DNA of 64,000 bases from Bolinopsis microptera. Lineage: Eukaryota; Ctenophora; Tentaculata; Lobata; Bolinopsidae. Shown piece by piece: positions 92 through 43,720 of the stretch (position 1 is its first letter; each line of letters starts with the position of its first letter). The notes beneath the pieces are model-generated. The model made no database searches, was not told where the DNA came from, and worked only from the letters and a program-made list of their open reading frames with translations. The position numbers and the translations under genes were made by a program. Location of the stretch: contig NC_087078.1 in NCBI RefSeq assembly GCF_026151205.1, positions 7,270,675-7,334,674 on the forward strand, read 5' to 3'.

Positions 92-3000
92 ATGACTATA
101 TATTCCAATGATTTTAAAATACTTCAGTGTCTTAACAAGCCCGCCGTCTTTACATCTATATTTGCTGTGGGTAACTTCTTTATGGTCATGTCTTACGGTA
201 TTCTCAGTATGATTATACCAACTTTGGAGTCAGTATTTAATCTGAACTCCAAGCAAACAGGTAAATTTACAAAAAGAAAACATTGCTGTATGTTATAATG
301 ATATAAAATGTATTCTCAAATATTATTAAACTCTTAAGCTGACAATTTTGACATATAGCAGTTTACGAACTTAGATATTTTATTTTCTTCGACCCTCAGG
401 CGTGATCTTAATGGCAAACGATATCAGTGGAACTGTAGCAGCATTATTTATAGCTAACTACTGTAGCGCAAGAAAAACAAGGTGGATCGGTATAGGTATG
501 ATTGTGGTGGTGATCGCAACAATTCTACCAGCTTCAGTTACCCTATTTGCAGAGGTTTACATTTGTATTAGCAGTTGAATTAGGTTAACAGTTAATTAAT
601 AGGTCATCACGGCTACTTTATTGGTCCAAATTTTAACGGACCAAACTGTTAACTGCATGAGCGGCCGTAATTTATTAATTATCAGCAGAAAAGAACATAC
701 TGCATTCATAAGCGACGTCCAAAAAATACTGATAAGGTAGTTTCATTGAAGCTTTGTCGATAAAAAACATTTAGTGTTATATAACAGTATAACCCTTAGT
801 GCTCAAAAAGTTTGAAAAAGACTACAGTCTACAATGTGATTGGAGCTGCATATTCTCTGAAATTTTAAGATTGTAAACTTTTTGTAAACTTTTGTAAACC
901 TTTTCAGTACCCTCTCCCCAGAAACCGCACTGAAGTAAGCTTCAACCAAACAATCAGAAGCGATGTTGAAAGTTACGGAGTATGTAATGAATCCAGATCA
1001 GAGTACGGTATAGACGAGTCAGAAGGTTACGCTATTCGAAACCACCAATATTACTGGATCTTTGTCTTTGGGTAAGTTTTGTAGTAATTTATATTGCTCC
1101 TCATTTCTTTTGGCATCCACCATCATTAAATGAATATGCAATGTGCTATTAAAAGTGAGACATGGTACAAAAACCTACTGTCTTCCATTGATGATTAAGC
1201 GATAAAAATTAAAAGTATTGGTTAGATTCTACCCAAAATGCGGTTTTTTAAAAACTACGCAGTAATTTCTGCATTTTATTAAAATGCAGAAATTACTGCG
1301 TAGTTTTTAAAAAACCGCATTTATTTTTAATTGTACGGTTAAGAAACAGTGTTATTGCAGTATTAATACCCCGATTCACCGCGGAGTTTTGGTGAAATAA
1401 AAAAGCTGCGGTAAATCAGGGTTTGCGGAAAAATCGTGGTTTTTATTGTTTACACTATGTATGTGCCCTATTTGGGGGAAAGGAAATGGCCGCGGTAAAT
1501 CGGGGTTTCCGGTAAATCGGGGTTTCCGGTAAATCGGGGTTTCCGGTAAATTGAGAATTTAATGTAAGTGTACCAAACTTCACTAACTTTTCAGTGCACT
1601 ACTCCAAGGTTTTGGAGCAGCACCTCCAGGAATAGCCGGCTCCACTTACATGGACGAGATCTTTACCCAAAAGCAGTTTGGAGTAGCGATATCCCTTCTT
1701 TACGTAGTATCCTTTATAGGATACCCAATATCCATGTTAGCAGGTTCTGTGTTTCTCCAGTACTACGTTACTTTCGACCCTCCGGAGGGGGTTACCTTTG
1801 AAAGTAAGGAGTGGGTAGGAGCGTGGTGGATGGGCATGTTCTTCCCCGCTATCGCTGTATTTGTACTCAGCTTCTTTGTGTTGCTCTATCCGAGACAGAT
1901 GCCTGCAGCAAAGGTGAAAACTGAAATATTTGTTACTAGAAATTACTTTTCAGTTCCATTCAATGGTGAATTTATTCTAGGTCTTCTTCAGAATTTTGCG
2001 ATTTTGACAAACTGAATCGATTTCATCACCCTTTTTGAGGATTCTCCATTTTACCATTTTGTATGCCGCCATAGAAAGTTCTAAAAGACAAAGTAAGACG
2101 AGGTATCACGACAGTTTTAGAGAAAAAAGAAGAGCTTGGACGGTCACTGAAAGAGATAACATTGGACATGATTCCAGCATTCAAAAGAGTCTTTAAGAAC
2201 AAAGCTCTGAATTGCCTGATTATCGGAGATGTTTTCTTATTCCTGCAAATTGGAGCATACAGTTTTTATCCTAAGATATACGCTTTAATATTCAGGTATA
2301 CTATTCCTGAATCACTAACCATAACAAACCAGCCTTCAGTTGGGTCGTTCCTCTTTTTAGTTGGGCTGTTCTTTTTACATAGTGCATTATATGCTTACAA
2401 ATTAATGTAACTCAACTGTATACAAATTACAAAGTGATATGATTTTTTTCTTCACAGTTCATATACAGCCGAATGTTCATGGACTATTGAATGTCCATTT
2501 TGAATGGTTAGATAAATAAATTCTTTCGTAATGTAATTCATACATTCCTGAGAACAGTGTATTTCAGATTGGATAGTAAATCAGTTGGGAGTATATTAGG
2601 AATATCCAACATTATCGGGTTTGCAGTGGGACTTATAGCTGGGGGACTTCTAATGAGGTGGAGGGACTGGCACCGTAAGAGAATTCATGCAATTCATTTA
2701 TCTATTTTATTTTTTACCAAACCCCACAATTGGGTAAAGTGGACCGTCACATGTATCTCCTTTTTCCCAACAAAAGCAAATGATATCAATTTAAGTATTG
2801 CAATTTATTTATCTCTTTTATTTGATGAAAGTGCTTTTGAACGTGAGGATAAAACTTTAATAAAAATGCTGATGTAAGCAAAAAGTATATGCTGGTAGGC
2901 GCCCATAATAATAACCATTGAAATTTCAGCGAAAACGTTGCAGTTGTTATACTCGATATTGACGGCAGCTGCAGTACCTTTTTCATTGGGAATGTTGTTA

Positions 3001-4925
3001 TACTGCCCGGTCAACACATACGCTGGTGTAGATTTACCTTACTCTGAAATACTCAACTCTTCTCAGCTAAGGTAAGTTACAGTAATAAAACTCAATATAA
3101 AATTATACAATATAATGGAAAGAAGAGCAAGCAAAAGGAGTGTAATCCAGTGTTTTTGGCTGGAATAACTCGATTTAAAAATTGTACATGTACAATAGAT
3201 AACCTAACCACTAACCGTGGTTCCACAGCATAACTAAGTGAGGATTAGTGATGTTAACTAACCCTGGTATATTCCCACAGCCCTCCTTCTCTGACGGGGG
3301 AATGTAACGCTGACTGCGCCTGCACCACCGCTTTCTACCAGCCAGTGTGTGATGGAAATGTTACCTTCTTCTCTCCCTGTCATGCTGGTTGTATGGACGT
3401 GGAACTTGTGGACGGTCAGGTGGGTCAAGTCGTTTGATTGTCAGTGTGATGTTCATTACAAATCGTTTAATTTCCAGTGTGATGTCCATTTAAATCATCT
3501 CTCAAACCATTTCATGTATACCAGAAACCTTCTTAAATAGTAATCAATTCGATTTTCTAATGAAAAGCATTGCTTTGTGATTTAATCGTTAATTAGCTGA
3601 AGTCTTGCTGCTATACGATATTTGGAGGTTTGTGAGTTGGTTAGCTTTGATCGACTATAATTTTGATCATGAAACAATAGTACCATTATCATTGATTTAT
3701 TTTCTATTCGGCTGCTTAGATACCATTCAATAAACAACATCATAAAATGATTGCTACAGACAAACTTTTTTTAAACTTTCGTGAACTTTCCTAACATATG
3801 CTGAATTCATTGTGTGCGTACTGTATTCTGTTATTATTGTACCGTGACAAACTAAATGGCAAAAAGGATTCCTATTGATATTTGATAACATTTGTGTTTC
3901 TCATTAAATTCTCATTAACCTAGATTTCTTTTACTTTTCAATGTTTGCTTTTGCTTGATCATCATAATCATTAATCAATGATGTCGATGCATGTATATAT
4001 TGTAGATTGTGGTGCCATTTTGATGCTGAGATGATACCAAATACCAATCAAACGCTTATATTCATTCTTTATGTGTCGCATCAATTTGATGTTTTAATGT
4101 AGCTCGTGCATAGTTTCCGAATGAAACAAGTGGATGTGTAACCATTAAAGCTTGCAACTGCTGGAGAAACAGAAAAATCAGAACCAAGAAAATGAAAGGA
4201 ACAACGCCCCTGTCATGTATTTTAAAGAATATCCCCAGGTGACAGCCTACACAAACTGCACGTGCACGGGAACTGGGACGGCGCGCGCTGGCGACTGTGG
4301 TGGAACCTGTCCCTCCACCGTCTGGATCTCACTAGCCATTACTACAGTTGGAACAGCCATAACCTTCGTGGGGTTCGCTGCTCACTCGGTGGTCTACCAG
4401 AGGATAGTGTCGGAGAAAGACAGGACCACAGCTCAAGGGTTGAGACAGTGTCTAACCAGGGTTCTAGGGACACTACCCTCTCCTATAATATTCGGGTATA
4501 TCCTGGATAGTGCGTGTATTGTGTGGAGGAGAACTAAGGACGGGGAACTGGGGAACTGCTGGTTATATGACGTGGACAAGTAAGTTGGGGTATAACTAAA
4601 ATGATGCTTAAATAAAAGGATAAAAGCACTGCTGTGATATACTTCAACTCCCTGAATGACTACCATGTTACCATGACTACCATGCTACTTCAGGTTTATC
4701 CTCTGGTTTATGGTGGTGCAAATCGTTCTGCGTCTTTTCACGGTCGTTTTCTACTTCCTGAGTTGGTGGCTGTTCCCCGAGGGCTGCGTGGCTGAAGAGG
4801 AAAATAACGGGATGAAATTACGGGAACTTGTTAACGAAGAGGACTCCAAGAAAGACAGTGAAAACAATAATGACTATGCTGATAATAGCAGCGCTTCTAT
4901 TTCAATAAAAGCTGAAGAGATGTGA
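92..4925 (+). CDS. Organic anion transporter (SLCO/OATP family), ten exons
   Basis: Sodium-independent organic-anion transporter of the major facilitator fold, expected in the plasma membrane. Exons by splice signal and phase: 92-260, 400-554, 908-1071, 1595-1913, 2075-2295, 2568-2674, 2930-3071, 3281-3419, 4239-4579, 4694-4925; they sum to 1989 nt, 662 residues, the usual OATP size. The family signature is visible as KEWVGAWWMGM near residue 240. Exon 8 encodes the Kazal-like extracellular loop, with the pattern CNADCACTTAFYQPVC followed by SPCHAGC. Exon 9 continues with a Cys-rich stretch and the last transmembrane segments, and exon 10 gives an acidic cytosolic tail. The start is the first ATG after an in-frame stop at 56; an upstream coding exon cannot be excluded. 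The donors after exons 4 (GTGAAA) and 8 (GTGGGT) are weak. Substrate unknown. Confidence 0.9.
1236..1322. repeat. 87-bp near-perfect palindrome in OATP intron 3
   Basis: Arms of 43 bases on either side of a single central base (1279) are exactly complementary; pairing stops at 1235/1323. It could form a long hairpin in DNA or in the unspliced transcript. It may be a foldback MITE. Confidence 0.9.
1489..1556 (+). repeat. 17-bp tandem repeat in OATP intron 3
   Basis: About four copies of the unit GGTAAATCGGGGTTTCC. Degenerate single copies lie just upstream near 1410. Noncoding, within the intron ahead of exon 4. Confidence 0.85.
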
Positions 4926-5990
4926 TTATGAAATTATTAATTTCCATTTTAGGAATCAAAAAGTAAACAAGCCATGTAGGCAAGTACATTAAAATTATGT
5001 ATTTGTTTTCATGATAATTGGGATTTGAATCTGTAAAAACCTAAAGGTACCGTTAGGGTATCTGGGATGTACTCTTTGGCGTTAGGGTTCACAATTCACA
5101 TTTCTGAAATCGGTCTTGCTAATACTTATTCACAATTGACAAATAATAATAAGATTGGGTTACATGAACCGCGCAAGGCATGGGTTCATGACGTAGCTTC
5201 GATGCAGGGTATAGGACGCAGCGGCGGAAGTCACTGCGGCGGTGTACAGTCCGGCGGAGGACGGTACAGCGGAGGACGGTACGGCGGTAGTTTTCAAAAA
5301 GGTTGGACGGTACGGCGGATCACATGACACCCACTTTACTTTGGACAGTACGGCGGTACTACTTCTACTAGAAACTGTACCTATAAGATAGACCTAGCAC
5401 TGCTAATATAACAAAATCGATTAGCTCTAAAAAGTTCTATTTTCCTCTTTGTTACTTCGAAATTAATTTTAATTAAAATTAAATTGGATAAAGTTTAACA
5501 TATACATTGTGATTACTAAGAGCAGTTCTTGTTCCACTTTCTGGTTCGTATCATATCGCGTCCGGTCTGCACAACGGTGGTTAAGCGAGTGCATGATGAG
5601 CTTGTTACGGTGAGATCTCATATCACTGCGCCGAGATGCAATGGGTAATAACAAGGGCATGAGAACACGTCACGAGGGATCGCATCCAGGAATCTGATCA
5701 ACCGTAGCCAAGAAGAGAGGTTGCTCAGTGAAACGTAGATAATGATAGAGGCAAACAGTATATAAAGCGGATCAAACAGTATATAAAGCGGATCAAACCA
5801 CAGTGCCGACATGACTGCGAAATCCGAGAAGTCCTCTCCCAAGTCCACGATCTGGCTGCGACTACGATTACTCAGAACCACAGAATCTACTGCTCCGTTA
5901 CTGGCTCGCTGTCCCAGACTGCTCGATTCCTCCTCCCCAGCGAACAAGCGGTGAAGAAGCAAGCTCAGAGACTTCATCACAGCACTTCAG

Positions 5991-6167
5991 ATGGAGCAGA
6001 GTTCAACAGATGGGAAGCACGCAGCCTACCTGGTCGGAGAGAACCCACCAAAGAGGAAGAAAGCTCACAGTGACAAGGACAGGAGGATTCACCGCATCGT
6101 GCAGAACTACCACTCTTACGAAGATGATGTCTTGACTTACCTGGATCTGCTCAGAAGTGTTATGTGA
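5991..6167 (+). CDS. Short hypothetical ORF (58 aa) inside foldback element
   Basis: An ATG-initiated frame of 58 codons, rich in Lys and Asp/Glu, containing PPKRKKAHSDKDRR and ending YLDLLRSVM. The composition is protein-like and the frame is open upstream to a stop at 5952. It could be the tail of a captured host or transposon gene. No family recognised. Confidence 0.25.
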   Translation: MEQSSTDGKHAAYLVGENPPKRKKAHSDKDRRIHRIVQNYHSYEDDVLTYLDLLRSVM

Positions 6168-6412
6168 ATTATTGATTGCTGTAACTTCTTGATGATGATT
6201 TGTGGGATTTAGATATTATTGCTATTGAGTGTGTCAAGTTATATTAACTTTTTGATTTTCAACAACTCAATATTCTCGATTTACATTGTCTGCAAAGCCC
6301 TGAATAAAAAAAATGAACAACTAAACTAACAAGAATTATACAAAATGATAAAGAGAAAAGAAAAAATAAAACTTATAATGCGAATCTAGAACAAAACTTA
6401 GAAACAAGTTGA

Positions 6413-7150
6413 ATGTGTAAGTTCTGTCTTAGGTACAGTCCCCTTTGTGGGCGTCAGCAGTGCAACCTAAAGCACATTCTAACGTGTTGCCCAGTGTCGC
6501 TTAAACAAGGAAGGTATAATTGGAGACATGATCAGGTGCTCAGGGTAATCGTGCAACCAATTGCAGAGAAGCTGAGGGAGATAAACAGTGCTACCCCAAA
6601 GACAGAAGTAAAGAGAGAGTGGAGGAAGTTCGTATCCGGAAAAGGAACCTACAGGAAACCCGAAGTACGGCTTACAGAAGAACCTCATCTTCTAGAGGAA
6701 GGTAACGACTGGAAACTAGTGTTTGATGAGGACGAAAGGACAAGACAATTCCCCCAACATATTGTCAACACAGCTCTCAGACCTGATGTGGTAATATACT
6801 CTAACACACTCAGGAAAGTCATCCTGATAGAGCTGACCTGTGGAAACGAGGAGAACTTTGAGGACCAGAGATCCCGGAAAGAGAAGAGATACGAAGAGCT
6901 AATGGTGGAGATCGAGACCGCAGGCTGGGAAGGATATCTCTTTACAGTAGAAGTTGGATGTCGTGGATTCTACCACCACACATTACCCCGAATTTTCAAC
7001 TTCCTTAACATCACCCGGGCAAAGAAGAAGAGGGCACTTAACACAACAGCGGTGGTGTCCCTGAAAGGTTCCTACACTATCTGGCTTAGTCGCTACAACA
7101 AGACCTGGAGTGACAACTGGCAGCTGGCTGAAAGACCCTGCCCAGTTTAA
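6413..7150 (+). CDS. Orphan restriction-like endonuclease domain (retrotransposon C-terminus)
   Basis: A 245-residue frame beginning with a Cys/His cluster (CKFC, then CNLKHILTCC) followed by GRYNWRHDQVL. Further on is a PD-(D/E)xK-type core, RPDVVIYS followed by VILIELTCGNEENF and a Lys/Arg-rich helix, then VEVGCRGFY. This order matches the zinc-finger plus restriction-like endonuclease tail of R2/NeSL-type non-LTR retrotransposons and related proteins (family knowledge). No reverse transcriptase precedes it: a TGA lies at 6410, directly before the ATG. The frame is intact over 245 codons, which is notable for a fragment. It lies inside the foldback element, so it may have been captured. The assignment to a specific element clade is uncertain. 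Confidence 0.6.
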   Translation: MCKFCLRYSPLCGRQQCNLKHILTCCPVSLKQGRYNWRHDQVLRVIVQPIAEKLREINSATPKTEVKREWRKFVSGKGTYRKPEVRLTEEPHLLEEGNDWKLVFDEDERTRQFPQHIVNTALRPDVVIYSNTLRKVILIELTCGNEENFEDQRSRKEKRYEELMVEIETAGWEGYLFTVEVGCRGFYHHTLPRIFNFLNITRAKKKRALNTTAVVSLKGSYTIWLSRYNKTWSDNWQLAERPCPV

Positions 7151-8098
7151 CCCTGATGAACAGCTGAACGTTGGGCCCTTAAAACGTCGTTGAAAGCTAC
7201 ATCTGGGGTCGTAAGTCCCAGACATCAGAAGAAGTCAGAGAGTGTAGAAGATTCTGCGTCTGAAAAGACTAGAGAATTGAGGTAAATATAGTTGGTTTGG
7301 TCTCTAGTAGTAGTAGTACCGCCGTACTGTCCAAAGTAAAGTGGGTGTCATGTGATCCGCCGTACCGTCCAACCTTTTTGAAAACTACCGCCGTACCGTC
7401 CTCCGCTGTACCGTCCTCCGCTGTACCGTCCACCGCCGCAGTGACTTCCGCCGCAGTGACCGGTTCCCTCGATGCAGGCAGATACAAAACTCCGAGCTAT
7501 ATCCGACTATAATGTCTTTGCCAAAATGATACAAACATTTTTGGCGATCCACTCTAATTAGAAACGACAGAACCGAAATTTTGATTGTTTCCCGATCGAT
7601 TCCATCATCCATGCCTTGACGGTGACCATCGTCTCAAGCTCAACCGTGACCGAGTTAGTGACGGATAGGCATGGTCAGCGAGTTTTAAGATTGTAACTCG
7701 TTTGAACTTTGAGATAATAGTTTTATTATTTGACATGGAAAACTAATAATATAAGTAGATCCGTTAAAAACTAAAACTAAAGTCACGGTTCCCGATGAGA
7801 ACGAGAAAATAAATCGATAATCGAATAACTTTTTGCCAATTCAACTGTCTGAGTGTCTGTATAAAGTTTGTTTTAAAATCTGATAGTTTAACTCGTTTAT
7901 ATTTTTATAGATTGCTCAATAAATATTTCAGAATACAGCAGCCATATCTGTCGATTTAGTTATTGTATTGACTGATGTCGATGATTCGCAGCAAAGTGCA
8001 CCTGGCGAGTCCATTAATAACGGACAAGTTATTGTACTGTTTTTTAAAGATCTATAAGTTATAACTGACCTGTAGTTTAACTGAAGAATCTATCCCAG

Positions 8099-8917
8099 GT
8101 AACATCCTACACAGACTGCATGTGCACCAAGTCTGGAAGAACACTCCCAGGAGAGTGTGGCAGCACGTGCACCACCACCATGTGGCTCTCCCTAACTCTC
8201 ACCACCGTGGGTACCATCATCGGGTTCTCCGGGTTCGCTGCTCATGCCTACATCTACCAGAGGATTGTTAATGAAGTGGACAGAACTTTTTGTCAGGGAA
8301 TTAGATCTAGTATAGTACGAGCACTTGGAACTATGCCAGCCCCTCTTCTTTTTGGTTGGGTTATTGATTCGTTCTGTGTTGTTTGGAGAGAGTCGGAGGA
8401 TGGGACTGTGGGGAACTGCTGGGTTTATGATGTGGACAGGTTGGTGAGGAGTGTAACCAGCTCCTGATTCATTCCTACTTCTCTATTTTTCTGTTTTATC
8501 CGATATGTATATACTTTCGTTACGGTTAACATGCATTAATTAACAATGACCATAAATACCAGTTTTGAAATTCAGGAGGTACGATTACTATTTCGCTGTT
8601 TCGCAGAAAGCCGCTGTAAATTCATACTTCTTGAACTAATAAATCTTAATTGAAGGTCTAAGCCTATCACTGAAACTTGTTTTCTTTTCAGACTGCTGCT
8701 GTGGTTCACGTTTCTGCAAATGGCGATGAGAACTGCAAGTTGTGCGTTTTACTTTGTTTGTTGGTACGTGTGGGTATATACTGATAGTGAGAAGACAACC
8801 AAGCCTGCCAAGCTAGTAGGAGAGGAGTTCCAGTACACAAAACACACAGATGAAAATGGAGAGGACCATTGTGATATTGCTAGTAAGGGACCTGTAAATG
8901 GCCAAGTCGAAAAATAA
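8099..8917 (+). CDS. Duplicated OATP terminal exon pair (possible alternative 3' end)
   Basis: Two exons, 8099-8439 and 8692-8917, encode a diverged second version of OATP exons 9 and 10. The first has exactly the same length (341 nt) as its counterpart at 4239-4579 and the same phases (0 in, 2 out). Conserved blocks include FAAHAYIYQRIV and GNCWVYDVD. Both frames are intact and end in a natural stop. No copy of the upstream exons is found between 4926 and 8098. The pair is therefore either a truncated duplicate or an alternative terminal cassette for the transporter at 92-4925; exon 8 (phase 0) could splice to it and give 660 residues. The internal donor is weak (GTTGGT). Confidence 0.75.
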
Positions 8918-11029
8918 AATCTTACCAATTATAACGAGGGTGTATAGTTATTACAAGAATTTTACGATTGAGTATAGTAACTGCAGACTTACGGTAAACA
9001 TATCCAGATACTTGTTTTGCCAGGAATTGGTAAATTGTATTTAATTATAATGTCGTTCAGATTGTTTTGTTGTTGAACTCAGCCTTTTATTTCTTAGATG
9101 CTACATTTTTCATTGAAGTACATGATGATATAACTTGAAAGCCATTGAAAACAGCCAGGTTTCGTAGATGAAGTGGTACAACTGCTATCCCATGGTGAAT
9201 TTAAAAATAATTCCACGTCTCATATCATATCTGATATCATCATCTGCAGCTATCAGCTTTCCAGTTCCTCAACCCAAATTTCACTATTTGACTGAATTTT
9301 GTTCACTATTCATCGCACAATATACTATCGGGGTATGAAAACTAAACTATTGAAGAAAGCTTTGATAAGATTTATTGACGAAATTGAAAGATGGTTCTAT
9401 AAACTATACTTATTGTAGAATTGTTTAGTTTTATTTTAAAAAGTGTGCAGTTAACTGCAATTATAACATGACGATGCAATGGTCCGTATCTAATTGAGGG
9501 CTTTTTAGAACTTAAATCTTCCATGTGTTCGTCGCTTCTGATCCTCCCCTCCCCGATTTCTTTGTTTACTGTTTCTTTCTTGTTTACCGATTCTCGCTTG
9601 GTTTTTTTTATCAACCTAATAATGGGAAACTCTTTAGTTTTACCCCCTTGTGGCTGGGTAAGAGTTGTGTTGGTGTTGTGTGGTGTAAGATCAACATTGG
9701 CGAACGTTCTAATTGTGAGGGACTATCTCTTGAAAACTCTGGTCCTGCTTCCTTAATGAGGAACTGGGATATCGTTTACGCGTACACGTACATTTTCCAG
9801 ATGATCTTCTTCTTCGGGGCAGGAAAAATCGTATGCACAGCTCTCCTTCAAGGAATTGACACTGCTTAAACTTTTTAATATATCCTGCGGTATAGAAGTC
9901 TAAAATTTCCGATATTGTTAATGTGAGATTGTTAGAATCAATTTTATGTAATATGGCAACATATTTTCATCAATTATCGATTATAGTATTATAAAAGTCG
10001 CTGCATTATCAACTTTCCATTCGATAATATGTAAGAATAATGAAATAGTTGGGAATATATCTGGGAATATGTGTTTTCCTGATTTCTAAAAGTGAGACTT
10101 TCTTTTTTCGATGTTTTTTAGGTAACGTCATGAAAAATGTTTGACCTTAACCATAGTTAAGTACATAAATCTGAAAGAAAAAAAATAACGGCCGATGGTC
10201 CGATAAAGTGCGGTATTAGGTCAATAGTGCGATTCTAATAACTTAGCTAGACAGTAAATATGCACCTTCAGATCAGATCGTCATTACGACCCTGCCTGTC
10301 AGATGAGATGAAGCGTCCCTAGCAAGTAGAAACCAATATGAAATACATTGAAGAATGGAAGATCAGATTTTCATAACGAGCCATGCAAGTCCATGCGGGG
10401 ACATCCAACATCCAACGAGTCCGGACCCTGTTGGTAGCATAGAGATCTGTAACTGGCTTGCTTGAGACTTATGCAAGTTATTGAATAAGATTGAATTAAA
10501 ACAACTCCGCGGCTCCGCCCTAGAGTTTTGTTTTTTTTTCACGTCTCGCGCCCTATAGTCCCCGACTCAGTTTGCAAACATCATGACGCTGCAACCCGTT
10601 TAATTCTATTAATCAAATACCATGATTTCTAAAATCCATAGCTCTTATTCAATATTCCATTTCAAAGCCTGAAGTACATAATCTTCAGAAGCTTCGTAAT
10701 CAGAACCATTAGTGGAAGTATAACTTCATCTGGTAATATGATAAAATGTGATAGAACACCTGAACACAGAGATCATTGCTTGTTTATTATTCGTTGACTG
10801 AACAATGTTGCTAGCTTTATGCCTACCAATCATATCAGTAAAACTTGCAGCTCCTCACGATTCAAACAAGACTGTGGCTCATGCAAATACATAGAGTATA
10901 CTACTACTACTACTAGCCCAGTAAAGTAATATAGCGTCTCTGGAACACGAACATGTTGTCTTCATTTCTTACTCCACTTTGTGTCCTATTATTATCAATC
11001 CGTGTTGCGTTTTATTTGTGTTGTTGATC
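8918..11029. other. Intergenic; one unassigned hydrophobic frame at 9525-9869
   Basis: No supported gene. On the + strand at 9525-9869 a 114-codon frame ends in a hydrophobic stretch (WDIVYAYTYIFQMIFFFGAG, then a stop). It resembles a membrane segment, but no start, splice partner or family could be established. Around 10260-10560 there is moderately GC-rich sequence of unknown nature; the rest is AT-rich. Confidence 0.4.
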
Positions 11030-29400: not shown

Positions 29401-31761
29401 ACGCCGCGCACACAGCCACAATTTTCAATTGTTCAGAAATTCGTAGGTCAGCTGTAGGCGCCGCGCACAGGATCTATTTAATTGTTATCTTACAATTACA
29501 TGTCGCATTTCTTAATTACTAGAGCCAAAATTTCAGAAGCAAAATAATTTAAAACATATTTCTGTCGTTCACGCAGTACAGGCCGTGAGCACTGCGATCT
29601 AATTAATAGATCGAATAATAATAATGGAGAAATTCCAAAAACCGCGCGCTCGTTATTTGTGATTAAATTGAGTGCGCGCCTCTGTGAACAGCAGTACCGC
29701 TCAAGCATGAAGTACTAAGCGGTACGCAGTTCTGCGTGAGGCGTAGACATTTGTAGCACACGTTTCATTCAACTAATCAATTATGTGACATGTAATTATA
29801 TTAAAGCAAAAAGAATATTAATTTTAGTAATAATTGACGTAAACATATGTGTTTAAATAACATTTATAATCTAGCTAGTTACCAATAATATAATACTATT
29901 TGTTTGTATTATTGATTATATATGTTTACACTAGCCTATATTATGATGAAGATATACATTATATAATTGTTCCAATATTCAACACTGCTAAACAACAAAT
30001 ACCTACTCGCCCATCGATGAAGCAGTCGCCAAAACAAAGCTCAAAGTTAATATACCTTCGTACTTCGTTTTGGAAACTGTAGAATGCCAGTAAATAATTA
30101 GTGTTTCAATCGTGTATTCGATGGGCAAGCACTCGCCACTCGAGGCCGAGACAAACGGCACCGGCTCCGCCCTGCAACCATGAAGTAATGTAAGCAGTAA
30201 GGCGGGGCGGTGGTGTGCGCCGTTTATACGGCCCACAGCACGAGACATTTTGAGCTCCAAGACTTATATTAAGACTATAAAAGTCCCGAGTTAAACGTAG
30301 CGACTTACCATCGTCAGCCGTCAAAAATTTAGAATTTGTATGTTATAAACTCTACATCTGATATCAGTATAACATGTAATTTAGTTTGTTATTGGCTAAA
30401 TTTTTTTTTGAATATAATTACTTTATAGGCCTAAGAGTTATAGACTGTCAAAGTTTAAAACGCGCATTGGAATAGCACGTGACTTATAAGGCTATATTTA
30501 TATTTCTTAACATATTCTCGATCCTTACACATCATACTATTGTGTCCAATTAATAGTTAGGTCTCTAAACTCATAGCAGAAAACACGTCTTTTTGCCCGT
30601 AAGAGCCTCTACTACATTGTTGCAGATGTAAGATTTGATGGAATTGGATTAACATAATTATTGAATGAATCTTCGGCCATTTCGAATTATTTGAGTTTCT
30701 ATTTTAAATCTTTTCGAAGTTGTTCTATGCTGATTGCACCATTTTCAATTTTGATCATTCAATATAATCATTTAGCTTTTCTTTTAATTTGATCGGGGAC
30801 TTCAATATGATCCATGGAGGTACAGGCCTTGACTGAATCTCGAGACTAATTTGGGAACCTGAACTGAAGTCCCCTATAGTTACAGTAGGGGATGTAATAC
30901 TGTAATATAATAGTAGTCACGTAGCAATATTTAAAGATTTAAAGGGGAAATATTTATGTAATAATAACGAACAAGGAGCATCCATCTTGCTGTCCACACC
31001 CCCCCCCCCCCCTCAAAGCATGTCAAACAAGAATTCTCGCCGCCCTCTCACTCTCCTTATTAATCTTAGATAAACTTAAAAGATTCGGCGATCTATAAGT
31101 TGTCTTCTCCTTTCGGATCTTTTGAATGGGTTACTTTTATAGGTTGGAGAGTTTTTACCCAATGACCATGTAGCAGTCATATATTAGGCAATTTATGCCA
31201 CTTCTAATTCTCTTGAAAGATGTTGATAAGACATCAACAACTGTAGACCATCAAATTCGATGCTCCAAAATTCATAAACCAAAGAAGTCTTGCTGCTGTT
31301 TTAATTGTAGCATTTGCTTACCTGTTGAGAATAAAATGCACAACTTGTTGAAGTATTTGAAATTAATATGCATTGTCAGCTTGACTGCACAATGTTTTTC
31401 TTATTATTCTAGAGCATTTTCCTGCTCAAAAGGTATATAAAGTACACTTTATCCATAAAATCCAAGAAAATTCATGTCCAGTTAAAAAACGCATTAGATT
31501 GGTTTAAATTAAAATAATCAGTGCAAGTGTGCAAATGGCATTAGGGCTTTCTAAATTGCACTATTGTATCCAATGGTTGTAATTATGACCTGCTGTTTGA
31601 GACTGATTTGCCTTATGGAACGCGAACTCTTAACAATTCACTACAGGCCAAGCTGCATATTATTGAATTAAGAAAAACAAAATTTTTATTAAACTATTCA
31701 GCATGTCAAATTGTATATTGAATCAGTTCTGATCCGACTGTTACTGCCCAGGTTTTTCACG

Positions 31762-34650
31762 ATGGTTCAGCCAAAGAAGCTTGACAGCCGAATACACAAA
31801 GTCATTCAGGAGTCAGTTAAAAATGGCCACAGAGGTTTGGTTGTTCTTGTGGGAGAAAGATCACGTGACCAAGTTGTTATCCTTCACCACTTGTTGAGTA
31901 AAGCTAATGTGTCTGCACGGCCATCTGTTTTGTGGTGCTACAAACATGATTTAGGCTTCACAACTCACAAGAAAAAGCGCCTAAAGATGATAAAGAAAAA
32001 GATCAGAGCAGGCACACTTGATCCAAACACGGATGACACTTTTGAAATGTTTATTTCTGCTACTGAGATAAGGTACATGTACTATAGTGAGAGTCACAAC
32101 GTACTTGGGAACACTTATGGGATGTGCATACTTCAAGACTTTGAGGCCATCACTCCTAATGTTCTTGCAAGAACAATCGAAACTGTTCAAGGTGGTGGAC
32201 TGATAGTTATTGTTCTCAACTCCGTTAGTGATATCAAGCAGTTGTATGACTTGCAAATGGACTGCCACAACAGATTTGTCACTAATGCTTACCAGACAGT
32301 TGTTCCAAGATTCAATAAAAGGTTTTTACTTTCCCTTACTGAATGTTCCAGCGGTATCGTCCTTTCAGATGCACTTGAAGTTCTACCTTTCACAGCTAAG
32401 AGTGCAACAAACCATGTGGCTAAAAACAACACTGCAGAAGAGCTCGCAAATCTTAAAACATCGCTGTCTGAAAGTCAACCCATTGGTTCTGTCATAAACA
32501 TTTGTAAAAGTTTGGATCAAGCAAATGCCCTTGTTAAATTTGTTGATGTCATATCTGAGAAAAGTTTAAAGTCAGTCATCACCTTAACTGCATCCAGAGG
32601 AAGAGGAAAAAGCGCTGCTTTGGGGCTGGCAATTGCCACAAGTATTGCATTTGGTTACTCAAATATATTTGTGACATCACCGTCTCCTGATAACCTAAAA
32701 ACATTGTTTGAGTTTGTGCTGAAAGGTTTCGATATCCTTGGCTTCACAGAACATACAGATTATGAAATTATTCAAAACACTAATGACAACATCAAATCAG
32801 TTGTAAGAATAAACATCTACAGGGATCACAGGCAAACTATTCAATACATTAAACCAGATGAGGGCGGAAAACTTCTTCAAGCTGAACTTCTTGTTATTGA
32901 CGAAGCAGGAGCAATACCTTTACATCTGGTGAAACAGATGTTAGGCCCTTATTTGGTGTTACTGTCATCAACAGTTCACGGATATGAAGGAACAGGAAGA
33001 TCATTATCACTGAAACTATTTGAGGAACTGAGAATTCAGTCTACTAGGGTCGGAGGAACTAGCTTAACACAGCTAAAGCTAGAGGAGCCCATTCGTTACA
33101 AGGAAGGAGATCCCGTCGAATCTTGGCTTAATAAACTCTTATGTTTGGATGCTAGCCCTCGGATTATATCTGGATGTCCAACTCCAAAAGAATGCTCCCT
33201 ATATTTTGTTGACAAAGACATTTTGTTTAGTTACCATAAGGCATCTGAGTCATTCCTTCAAAGAATAATGACTCTTTATGTGTCCAGCCATTATAAGAAC
33301 TCTCCAAATGATCTGCAGCTGCTGTCAGATGCCCCTGCACATCAACTGCTGGTTCTCTTAGGACCTATTGATAGCAACTCCTCACAGCTTCCAGAAGTTT
33401 TGTGTGTACTGCAAATCTGTTTTGAAGGCCAAATAAACCGACAAATTGTAATTTCACAGCTAGAGCAAGGTCACAGGTCAGCTGGTGATCTTATACCTTG
33501 GACCATTTGCCAGCAGTTCCAAGATGCCAACTTTGGGGAGCTCTCTGGAATTAGAATTGTGCGGATAGCAACACACCCTGACTTTCAAAGTATGGGTTAT
33601 GGAAAACATGCTATGAACTTACTTTCTCGGTATTACAAAGGTGAGATAGCTACCAGTGAAAAGAAAGAGGGTTCAACCCTACTGATTGGGCTAAATGAAC
33701 GAACACCTGAAGCAATGGATTACATTGGAGTGAGTTATGGAATGACACCACCTCTCCTCAAATTCTGGAAAAGGTTGGGTTTCAGAGGTTTATATCTGAG
33801 ACAGACACCTAACGATATCACTGGTGAACACACGTGTATCATGGTACAGGATTGGGAGCAAAGCTGGCTGAAAGAGTATCACAAAGATTTCACATTCCGT
33901 CTCTTAAATCTACTTGGTTATCAGTTCAGAAAGCTACCCCCTCAGACAGTGCTTAATATGATAAACACTGCTGAGGTGCTGAACACTGTTGATGCTACCT
34001 CCAGTACTGCTTTTTCTGCAATCAGTAAATACGATTTCAGAAGACTTAAGAGCTACTCGGACAATCTCACTGATTACCACATTATTCTAGATTTGGTTCC
34101 TACCATTACCAAACTTTACTTCCAGGGGAAAATGAACCTCAACTTGTCGCCTTTACAAGCAACTATTCTCATATCTCTTGGACTTCAGTACAAAACTATT
34201 GATGAAACCAGTATTATCTTTCCTGATTTAGAAACAAACCAAATCCTCGGCATCTTCAAGAAGATAATTAAGAAAACTGTTGGGTATATGGAGGGGATCA
34301 TGAAGGCAGAGATTGACTCTGAAATCAAAGACGCTCCATCCAAGGTAGTTCTGAATGGTATTGAGGGCTCTATGCGGGATGAACTAAACAAAGTGGAAAG
34401 TGAATTCAAAGAGAAACAGAAAGAGAATGCTGAGAAAGTGAAGGATTTGATTAAGGCAGATGATGCAGAGTTCTCTATCAAATCTAATGATTTTGGTGAT
34501 GATGTCAAACTTACTGGCAACACGATTGTTTCCATTAAAAGAACTATTGTGGCAGAAACTCCTTCAATTGAGAAATCAGGTAAGAAGAAGAAGAGGAAAA
34601 GTGAGGGTCCCGAGAAGACGAAAAAGAAGAAAAAGCAACCGATAAGCTGA
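31762..34650 (+). CDS. NAT10: RNA cytidine acetyltransferase NAT10/Kre33
   Basis: Nucleolar enzyme that makes N4-acetylcytidine on 18S rRNA and some tRNAs, using acetyl-CoA and ATP, and is needed for small-subunit biogenesis (family knowledge). A single uninterrupted frame of 962 residues. In order: the N-terminal TmcA-like domain (RSRDQVVILHHLLSKANVSA, ARPSVLWCYKHDLGF); the helicase/ATPase domain with Walker A SRGRGKSAALG (Lys near 283) and DEAGAIP near 380, where most relatives have DEAAAIP; GYEGTGRSLSLKL; the tract HYKNSPNDLQLLSDAPAH; the GNAT acetyl-CoA fold with VRIATHPDFQSMGYGKHAM near 600-618; and a Lys-rich tail fitting nucleolar localisation. ATG 31762 matches the family N-terminus. 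It is somewhat shorter than the usual ~1020 residues, partly because the linker after the ATPase domain is short. It is the only intronless gene in the window. Confidence 0.97.
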   Translation: MVQPKKLDSRIHKVIQESVKNGHRGLVVLVGERSRDQVVILHHLLSKANVSARPSVLWCYKHDLGFTTHKKKRLKMIKKKIRAGTLDPNTDDTFEMFISATEIRYMYYSESHNVLGNTYGMCILQDFEAITPNVLARTIETVQGGGLIVIVLNSVSDIKQLYDLQMDCHNRFVTNAYQTVVPRFNKRFLLSLTECSSGIVLSDALEVLPFTAKSATNHVAKNNTAEELANLKTSLSESQPIGSVINICKSLDQANALVKFVDVISEKSLKSVITLTASRGRGKSAALGLAIATSIAFGYSNIFVTSPSPDNLKTLFEFVLKGFDILGFTEHTDYEIIQNTNDNIKSVVRINIYRDHRQTIQYIKPDEGGKLLQAELLVIDEAGAIPLHLVKQMLGPYLVLLSSTVHGYEGTGRSLSLKLFEELRIQSTRVGGTSLTQLKLEEPIRYKEGDPVESWLNKLLCLDASPRIISGCPTPKECSLYFVDKDILFSYHKASESFLQRIMTLYVSSHYKNSPNDLQLLSDAPAHQLLVLLGPIDSNSSQLPEVLCVLQICFEGQINRQIVISQLEQGHRSAGDLIPWTICQQFQDANFGELSGIRIVRIATHPDFQSMGYGKHAMNLLSRYYKGEIATSEKKEGSTLLIGLNERTPEAMDYIGVSYGMTPPLLKFWKRLGFRGLYLRQTPNDITGEHTCIMVQDWEQSWLKEYHKDFTFRLLNLLGYQFRKLPPQTVLNMINTAEVLNTVDATSSTAFSAISKYDFRRLKSYSDNLTDYHIILDLVPTITKLYFQGKMNLNLSPLQATILISLGLQYKTIDETSIIFPDLETNQILGIFKKIIKKTVGYMEGIMKAEIDSEIKDAPSKVVLNGIEGSMRDELNKVESEFKEKQKENAEKVKDLIKADDAEFSIKSNDFGDDVKLTGNTIVSIKRTIVAETPSIEKSGKKKKRKSEGPEKTKKKKKQPIS

Positions 34651-42100: not shown

Positions 42101-43720
42101 AGATGGCGTATGACATGACTGAGGTGCTGGAAGTTTGATTTCTGTCGGAGGAAGCTCACTGCAGAAATAAGAAAGCTTAACAAAACGAAAATTCATATTT
42201 TCCAAATTCTGTCGCATTTTCAAATATGAAAATTTCTGAACACAAATTTGACAGATTGGATGGACTTTTTGACCAGAGACCTGGAAGTCAAAATCCCGAA
42301 TGAAATCGAAAAATCACATTCTCCCATTTCTAGTTTTTGAAGATGAAATTTTCAGGACCGAAATTTTACAGTTTTGACTGAATTTATCACCCGCAATCAA
42401 TTTGTCAGTCAACTATAGATCAAGATGGGGGGGTGTCACGTCCGTCTATGTCCGCTTGTCTCATAGAATCCAAAAAGGACAGGACATAGGCGGACATAGG
42501 CGGACATAGGCGGACATAGACGGACATAGGCGGACATAGGCGGACATAGGCGGACATAGGCGGACATTAATGGAAATAACATTTAGATGCTTCCTCCTCC
42601 TACTCTTCCTCCTCCTCTCCCTGGGTCTTCCTGATCTTCCTCAGTCCTCTTGCTCCTCCCCTCCTCTGTCCTCCTCCTACTCCTCCTCCTCGTCCTCAGT
42701 CCTCCTCATCAGTCCTCAACAGTCCTTCTCCTCCCCAGTCCTCCTCCTCCTCCTGAGTACTCCTCCAGGGTCCTCCTCTTCATCCTCCTCCTCTTCCTCC
42801 TCAGTCCTCCTCCTCATCCTTCTCCTCAGTCCTCCATCCTCCTCCTCAGTCTTCCCCCAGTCCCCCTCCTCCTCCTCCTATTTAGTCCTCCTCCTCCTCC
42901 TTCTCAGTCCTCCTCCTCCTGAGTCCTCCTCCTCCTCCTCCTCTTCCCTCTCAGTCATCCTCCTCAGCCATCCTCCTCAGTCCTCCTCAGTCCTCCTCCT
43001 GATCCTCAGTCCTCCTCCTCCTGGGTCCTCCTCCTCCTCTTCATCCTCCTCCTCTTCCTCCTCGGTCCTCAGTCCTCCTCCTCCTGGGTCCTCCTCCTCA
43101 TCCTTCTCATCAGTCCTCCTCCTCCCCAGTCCTCTCCCAGTCCCCCTCCTTCTCCTCCTCCTATTCAGTCCTCCTCCTCAGTTCTCCTCAGTCCTCCTTC
43201 TCATTTCTCCTAAGTCCTCCTCCTGAGTCCTCCTCTTGCGTCCTCCTCCTCTTCCTTCTGAGTCCTCCTCCTCCTCCCTCTCAGTCATCCTCCTCAGTCA
43301 TCCTCCTCAGTCATCCTCCTCAGCCATCCTCCTCAGCCATCCTTCTCAGCCATCCTCCTCAGTACTCTTCAGTACTCTTCAGTACTCTTCAGTCCTCAAA
43401 ATGTTTGTCCGCTAATGTCCACCAATGTCCGCTAATGTCCATCAATGTCCATCCAAGTCCGCCAATGTCCGTCCGGGTCCGCCAATGTCCGTCCGAGTCC
43501 GCCAATGTCCGTCCGAGTCCGCCAATGTCCGTCCGAGTCCGCCAATGTCCGTCCGTGTCCGCCAATGTCCGTCCGAGTCCGCCAATGTCCGTCCGAGTCC
43601 GCCAATGTCCGTCCGAGTCCGCCAATGTCCGTCCGTGTCCGCCTATGTCCCAAAAAACACGTCCGTTGTCTCATAGAATCCAAAAAGGACAGGACATAGG
43701 CGGACATAGACGGACATGAC

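Follow-up and report, generated by a model that had tools for sequence, protein, structure and literature searches.

The DNA analysed here is a 64,000-nucleotide (nt) stretch of the ctenophore Bolinopsis microptera (NC_087078.1, positions 7,270,675 to 7,334,674 of the forward strand; hereafter, the window), near the start of which lies a gene of the OATP/SLCO transporter family. This single OATP (SLCO-type) gene quite probably possesses two ancient alternative 3′ terminal exon pairs, designated cas1 (the upstream pair) and cas2 (the downstream pair), and would probably make two transporters that differ in their final membrane segments. An intronless copy at another genomic site, R2, looks like a retrocopy—in effect, a preserved complementary DNA (cDNA)—of a transcript in which exon 9 was joined to cas2, since exons 1–9 and cas2 fit one history, whereas exons 1–9 and cas1 do not.

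In the proposed scheme, exons 1–9 would be spliced to cas1, with the transcript ending at the cas1 stop and poly(A) site, or alternatively would be spliced past cas1 to cas2. Both transporters would share transmembrane segments (TM) 1–9 and the Kazal-like loop, and would differ in TM10–TM12 and in the cytoplasmic tail. The choice may be made by competition between splicing and polyadenylation of cas1 (ATTAAA at 4988) and splicing to cas2 (AATAAA at 8913-8918). Present-day alternative use of both cassettes is likely, and cas1 would already have been in the locus when R2 was copied. A swap of TM10–TM12 alters the membrane segments of the transporter, so that a single gene could cover two ranges of substrates or two sites. 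As a preserved cDNA, an intron-free gene copy also provides a test of a predicted splice isoform from the genome alone, and whether a splice isoform became a gene of its own can here be put to experiment directly.

Structure of the gene and its terminal cassettes

The gene belongs to the OATP/SLCO family by near-full-length matches to PF03137 and to the Protein Data Bank (PDB) entries of OATP1B1 and OATP2A1, the Kazal-like loop being present, and its product is a putative transporter of organic anions. The initial annotation, made from the sequence alone, had the transporter begin at position 92. Exon 2 instead begins at 128, and the first coding exon, which reads MPEGADYKKLGAHESWDDTDRKITQMGYMGWRPRFLE, lies upstream of the window (Table 1). 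The donor at 3419 is hence that of coding exon 9 and not of exon 8, as had been proposed, while the claim that it can join either cassette in frame stands. With exon 1 added, the predicted isoforms are corrected from 662 and 660 residues to 687 (497 + 190, with cas1) and 685 (497 + 188, with cas2).

As annotated, the segments 8099-8439 and 8692-8917 repeat the last two coding exons in an intact, phase-matched second copy, so that two adjacent groups of homologous 3′ exons stand behind one common upstream exon. Exons 10 and 10′ are of equal length (341 nt), begin in phase 0 and end in phase 2; acceptors are AG and donors GT in either pair, and each frame is intact (190 open codons in cas1, 188 in cas2) though diverged. 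Each cassette alone matches PF03137 above its cut-off of 25.8 bits (98.8 bits for cas1, 88.9 for cas2). Protein identity between the two is 74/141 (52%) as far as the end of TM12 and 2/51 in the tails, compared without gaps; resemblance by chance is excluded. TM10 is the most alike (15/23) and TM12 the least alike membrane segment (8/24), with segment limits that are our own estimate.

Each cassette encodes the final cysteines of the Kazal-like loop, TM10, TM11, a short last loop, TM12, and the tail. The swap thus alters part of the loop and the tail, as first described, but takes in three membrane segments rather than a last TM region. An arginine aligned with R580 of OATP1B1, a residue that presumably matters for transport, is kept in both cassettes (in cas2 by alignment, in cas1 by eye). 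A third in-frame join, from 4579 to 8692, would be possible, the phase being equal.

The annotated absence of further upstream exon copies also holds: a tblastn search with exons 1–9 against 4926-64000, both strands, gave a best E of 0.8, a search that strongly decayed exons could escape, and the genome-wide searches (17 matches for cas2, 62 for the protein model of the initial annotation) show nothing within the window beyond the two cassettes and the exons of the gene itself. Besides the AATAAA at 8913-8918, no such poly(A) signal occurs within 8917-9600.

An intronless copy with a cas2-type tail

R2 (L002, on C2), the genome's best match over the full length, is an intronless OATP whose 726 codons form one open frame, colinear with the window gene from the N-terminal tail to TM12. 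The multi-exon paralogue L006 has counterparts to 10 of the 10 introns of the window gene at aligned places (by eye, with phases checked in part); the introns are hence old, and R2 most likely lost all of them at once. No poly(A) tract is evident by eye in the 400 nt past the R2 stop, as expected of an old copy.

Identity to R2 is 334/497 (67%) for exons 1–9 and 96/141 (68%) for cas2, against 75/144 (52%) for cas1. Scaled by the outgroups L006, R3, and R4, the distances to R2 are 0.555 (95% interval 0.477-0.641) for exons 1–9, 0.562 (0.411-0.746) for cas2, and 1.00 (0.795-1.22) for cas1, and exons 1–9 reached the cas1 distance in none of 2000 bootstraps (a fraction of 0.0005 when unscaled).

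A partitioned likelihood on one fixed tree of six rows points the same way. The edge-linked model is accepted for exons 1–9 with cas2 (likelihood ratio test [LRT] 7.83, 8 degrees of freedom, p = 0.45) and rejected for exons 1–9 with cas1 (26.56, 8 degrees of freedom, p = 0.0008); without the distant R5, the respective values are p = 0.59 and 0.0005, and the Akaike information criterion (AIC) favours the unlinked model for cas1 only. For the whole cassette, the approximately unbiased (AU) test rejects both the pairing of cas1 with R2 (0.007) and that of cas1 with cas2 to the exclusion of R2 (0.013). Shared derived residues number 11 for cas2 with R2, against 2 for either of the remaining pairings, and R2 is closer to cas2 than to cas1 in each exon (25 versus 10 sites and 11 versus 4 sites). 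These tests rest on seven cassette rows and six exon 1–9 rows, in which the L006 row was built by eye and the R4 row consists of three frame pieces joined from a broken copy.

The copy on C2 most likely goes back to a germ-line transcript in which exon 9 was spliced to cas2. The junction 3419-8099, put forward in the initial annotation, is backed by R2, which carries a cas2-type tail and an exon 1–9 part equally close to the gene. The same annotation had regarded the downstream pair as an added copy of the native tail; this is reversed, in that the divergence of cas1 is the one that does not match exons 1–9. Judged by these comparisons, the downstream cas2 shares the history of exons 1–9, and cas1 is the older-diverged cassette.

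The genome holds at least four intronless OATP copies (L002, L003, L004, and L005), the L004 match being split over frames, and retroposition of the OATP family seems frequent in this genome.

Age and constraint of the cassettes

The split between the cassettes is of great age. Third positions agree at only 29-46% in five cassette comparisons (with R2, with R3, or with each other), which is near saturation. The nonsynonymous distance dN (NG86) is 0.215 between exons 1–9 and R2 and 0.244 between cas2 and R2, compared with 0.417 between cas1 and R2 and 0.395 between cas1 and cas2. The dN/dS ratio between cassettes had been proposed as a check: dN was obtained, while the ratio itself is limited by the saturated third positions. 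Use of the synonymous distance dS as a clock was abandoned for the same saturation, NG86 giving no dS in 6 of 7 comparisons and YN00 none for the same six.

In a neutral simulation, the chance that no stop arises is ~0.12-0.13 at K = 0.1, 0.02 at K = 0.2, and at most 0.002 at K = 0.5. Long-term constraint on the sequences of both cassettes appears clear, the very recent past excepted. The idea that cas1 is a fast-evolving, younger copy of cas2 is ruled out by Tajima's test (p 0.73-0.87 with three outgroups) together with the shared derived residues; with R5 (p = 0.017), it is cas2, not cas1, that carries more unique changes.

Points against the preferred reading

Several observations weigh against two alternative terminal pairs with the history proposed above. 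The Bayesian information criterion (BIC) favours the linked model for the cas1 join too, so that only the LRT and AIC reject it. Taken per exon, the AU test is weaker: the pairing of cas1 with cas2 has p = 0.067 in exon 10 and 0.036 in exon 11, and that of cas1 with R2 has p = 0.009 in exon 10 alone and 0.15 in exon 11 alone. Five of the seven cassette trees survive this test, several placements of cas1 fit, and cas1 could have arrived after R2. In the cassette tree, the cas2 branch (0.345) is longer than that of R2 (0.288), while in the exon 1–9 tree, the branch of the window gene (0.164) is shorter than that of R2 (0.323), a contrast which may hint at mild relaxation of cas2. The donor of exon 10′, GTTGGT, is weak, and an out-of-frame GTGAGG stands 4 nt on. 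R2 testifies to a single past isoform, not to two present ones, and this genome contains tails of another OATP gene that were copied without the rest and are presumably inert. Finally, no conserved intronic element stood out before the cassette acceptors.

One candidate for such an element, a best local match of 19 in the 40 nt before the acceptors (p = 0.016 by shuffling; p = 0.06 over 150 nt), was dropped because, among 66 pairs, two unrelated acceptors of this gene reached 19 as well. The inner introns and the 3′ flanks of the cassettes show no similarity (p = 0.50 and 0.90).

Origin of cas1 and competing explanations

In four multi-exon OATP genes (L006–L009), an intron lies at most 2 nt from the Q-R junction that follows TM10; its phase is 0 in L006 and 2 in L007–L009. 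Both cassettes are without this intron, which suggests a common origin. A duplication inside the window gene is, by this comparison, suggestive only, given the 2-nt offset; multi-exon copies on C5, C10, C11, and C48 lay outside the comparison. More speculatively, and in our judgement rather unlikely, cas1 might be the captured TM10–TM12 tail of a lost OATP gene, placed between exon 9 and the native tail to give two unlike C-terminal bundles. The older cas2 isoform would then have been fixed separately by retroposition as R2, and splice choice and gene duplication would cover the same functional split.

It is improbable, on balance, that cas2 was the sole tail when R2 was copied, that cas1 was inserted later from another OATP, and that, the tail having been replaced, one cassette is on its way to becoming an unused relic. 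Such an insertion would agree with the position of cas1, which is equally far from cas2, R2, and the tails of L006 and R4 (in a longer cassette alignment, its identity is 49% to cas2, 52% to L006, and 53% to R4), and with the several tree positions that fit it. The absence of any gene close to cas1 among the genome matches listed speaks against a foreign source, however, as does the intron missing from both cassettes. The weak cas2 donor would suit a relic, and one younger than about K = 0.1 is compatible with the stop simulation, but both cassettes are open with GT/AG sites, and neutral sequence would stay free of stops with a chance of ~0.02 at K = 0.2 and no more than ~0.002 at K = 0.5.

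It is very unlikely that cas2 is the 3′ remnant of a complete tandem duplicate whose exons 1–9 were deleted, with R2 a retrocopy of that lost gene. Such a history would account for the survival of 3′ exons only, and tail-only segmental copies do exist elsewhere in the genome (C10: L010 and L011); it predicts, however, that R2 and exons 1–9 differ at the cas1–cas2 level (52%), while their actual identity is 67%, as for cas2, and gene conversion across all nine upstream exons would be required. L010 (C10:7081-7090k) and L011 (C10:1874-1883k), examined over 9.9 kb each, contain only the 3′ exons of the OATP gene L012 (C10:7058-7063k). Their main blocks are 96-99% identical in DNA to L012, introns included, and repeat arrays adjoin both (units of ~64 nt at L010 and ~47 nt at L011). 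Both are recent partial duplications, and partial 3′ duplication appears ordinary in this genome because L012 has two 3′-only copies. The pair in the window is set apart from them by its age, its intact frames, and the retrogene.

A separate cas2 transcription unit, with its own promoter or a trans-spliced leader and encoding a short protein of three TM, is highly improbable. The cas2 exons are open and contain an ATG at 8120, but the first cas2 codons complete the Kazal-like loop and so require exon 9, the cassette begins at an acceptor with the phase of cas1, and R2 carries the cas2-type tail attached to exons 1–9. An artefact of assembly, through haplotypes that collapsed or contigs wrongly joined, for which nothing specific speaks, is scarcely credible, the cassettes being too diverged for haplotypes at 52% protein identity and R2 having a cas2-like tail independently.

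Comparison with known terminal exon duplications

Duplication of a terminal exon pair is of a known kind, while its current use here is predicted from the genome. According to the available extract of PMC5896119, the G-protein gene GNAO (G-alpha-o) ends in either of two mutually exclusive exon pairs, 7.1-8.1 or 7.2-8.2, a choice conserved across all the major clades of vertebrates. The OATP gene resembles it in the local duplication of the last two coding exons behind a common upstream exon, with proteins that would differ only C-terminally. Unlike GNAO as described there, it encodes a transporter in which TM10–TM12 would be swapped, the cassettes have 52% protein identity and saturated third positions, and the case is supported by a retrogene. 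The same extract describes a cephalochordate preGNAS with its final two exons duplicated; a duplicated final pair with a small length change is common to both cases, but protein identity is 80-81% in preGNAS as against 52% here.

Among human genes, 77 C-terminal tandem duplicated exon substitutions, called ancient, are reported in the portion of PMC9741552 at hand, with ion transporters among the convergent cases. Homologous C-terminal regions are swapped there as proposed here, yet that portion contains no OATP case. Among the literature matches listed, human OATP splice variants (OATP1B3 and OATP3A1) include none with a duplicated TM10–TM12 exon pair, and duplicated terminal exons are reported there for no OATP gene, which is no proof of absence.

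Feature coordinates and other elements

Table 1. Positions of the gene, its terminal cassettes, and the intervening transposon (window coordinates unless stated).
Feature	Position	Strand	Remarks
Coding exon 1	C7:7270493-7270603 = L001:6494-6604, ~70 bases upstream of the window		37 codons, MPEGADYKKL...RPRFLE; joins exon 2 at 128
OATP coding exons 2–9	128-260, 400-554, 908-1071, 1595-1913, 2075-2295, 2568-2674, 2930-3071, 3281-3419	+	Splice sites, phases, and co-linearity with R2
Exon 9	3281-3419	+	Kazal-like cysteine-rich loop; common donor CAG/GTGGGT at 3419, phase 0
cas1 exon 10	4239-4579 (341 nt)	+	End of extracellular loop, TM10, TM11
cas1 exon 11	4694-4925	+	TM12, cytoplasmic tail, stop; ATTAAA at 4988, possible poly(A) signal
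DNA transposon	5207-7468	.	Inverted ends 5206-5395/7280-7469 (190 nt); many near-identical genome copies
cas2 exon 10′	8099-8439 (341 nt)	+	End of extracellular loop, TM10, TM11; donor CAG/GTTGGT
cas2 exon 11′	8692-8917	+	TM12, different tail, stop; AATAAA at 8913-8918 overlaps the stop

The transposon between the cassettes is flanked by the direct repeat TCGATGCA at 5199-5206 and 7469-7476 (8-10 nt) and accounts for ~2262 nt of the 3173 nt that separate them; without it, they would stand ~0.9 kb apart. Its left end has at least 40 further matches in the genome (40 from 100 candidate places scored), a count in which both ends of one element can each match the left-end query. Since some of these copies match at 99-100%, the insertion is probably recent. 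The internal open reading frame (ORF) at 6413-7150 has no Pfam match. A 358-codon ORF upstream of the gene (L001:2-1075) has CPV.L.QGRY.WRHD.VL in common with it (by eye), and the two are possibly related mobile-element proteins.

In the intron between exons 4 and 5, a near-perfect palindrome at ~1240-1321 is perhaps a small inverted-repeat element (by eye). Further downstream, a long single open frame on the + strand (31711-34650) matches the NAT10/TmcA RNA cytidine acetyltransferase, with four Pfam domains over the cut-off; apparently intronless, it is possibly another retrogene. Of two glutamate receptors compared with PDB entries, one matches ML032222a best, a protein of the ctenophore Mnemiopsis, which agrees with a ctenophore origin of the DNA; the other is closest to kainate receptors. 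A low-complexity ORF of 218 codons at 42570-43226, rich in Ser, Leu, and Pro, is probably a simple-repeat tract and not a gene.

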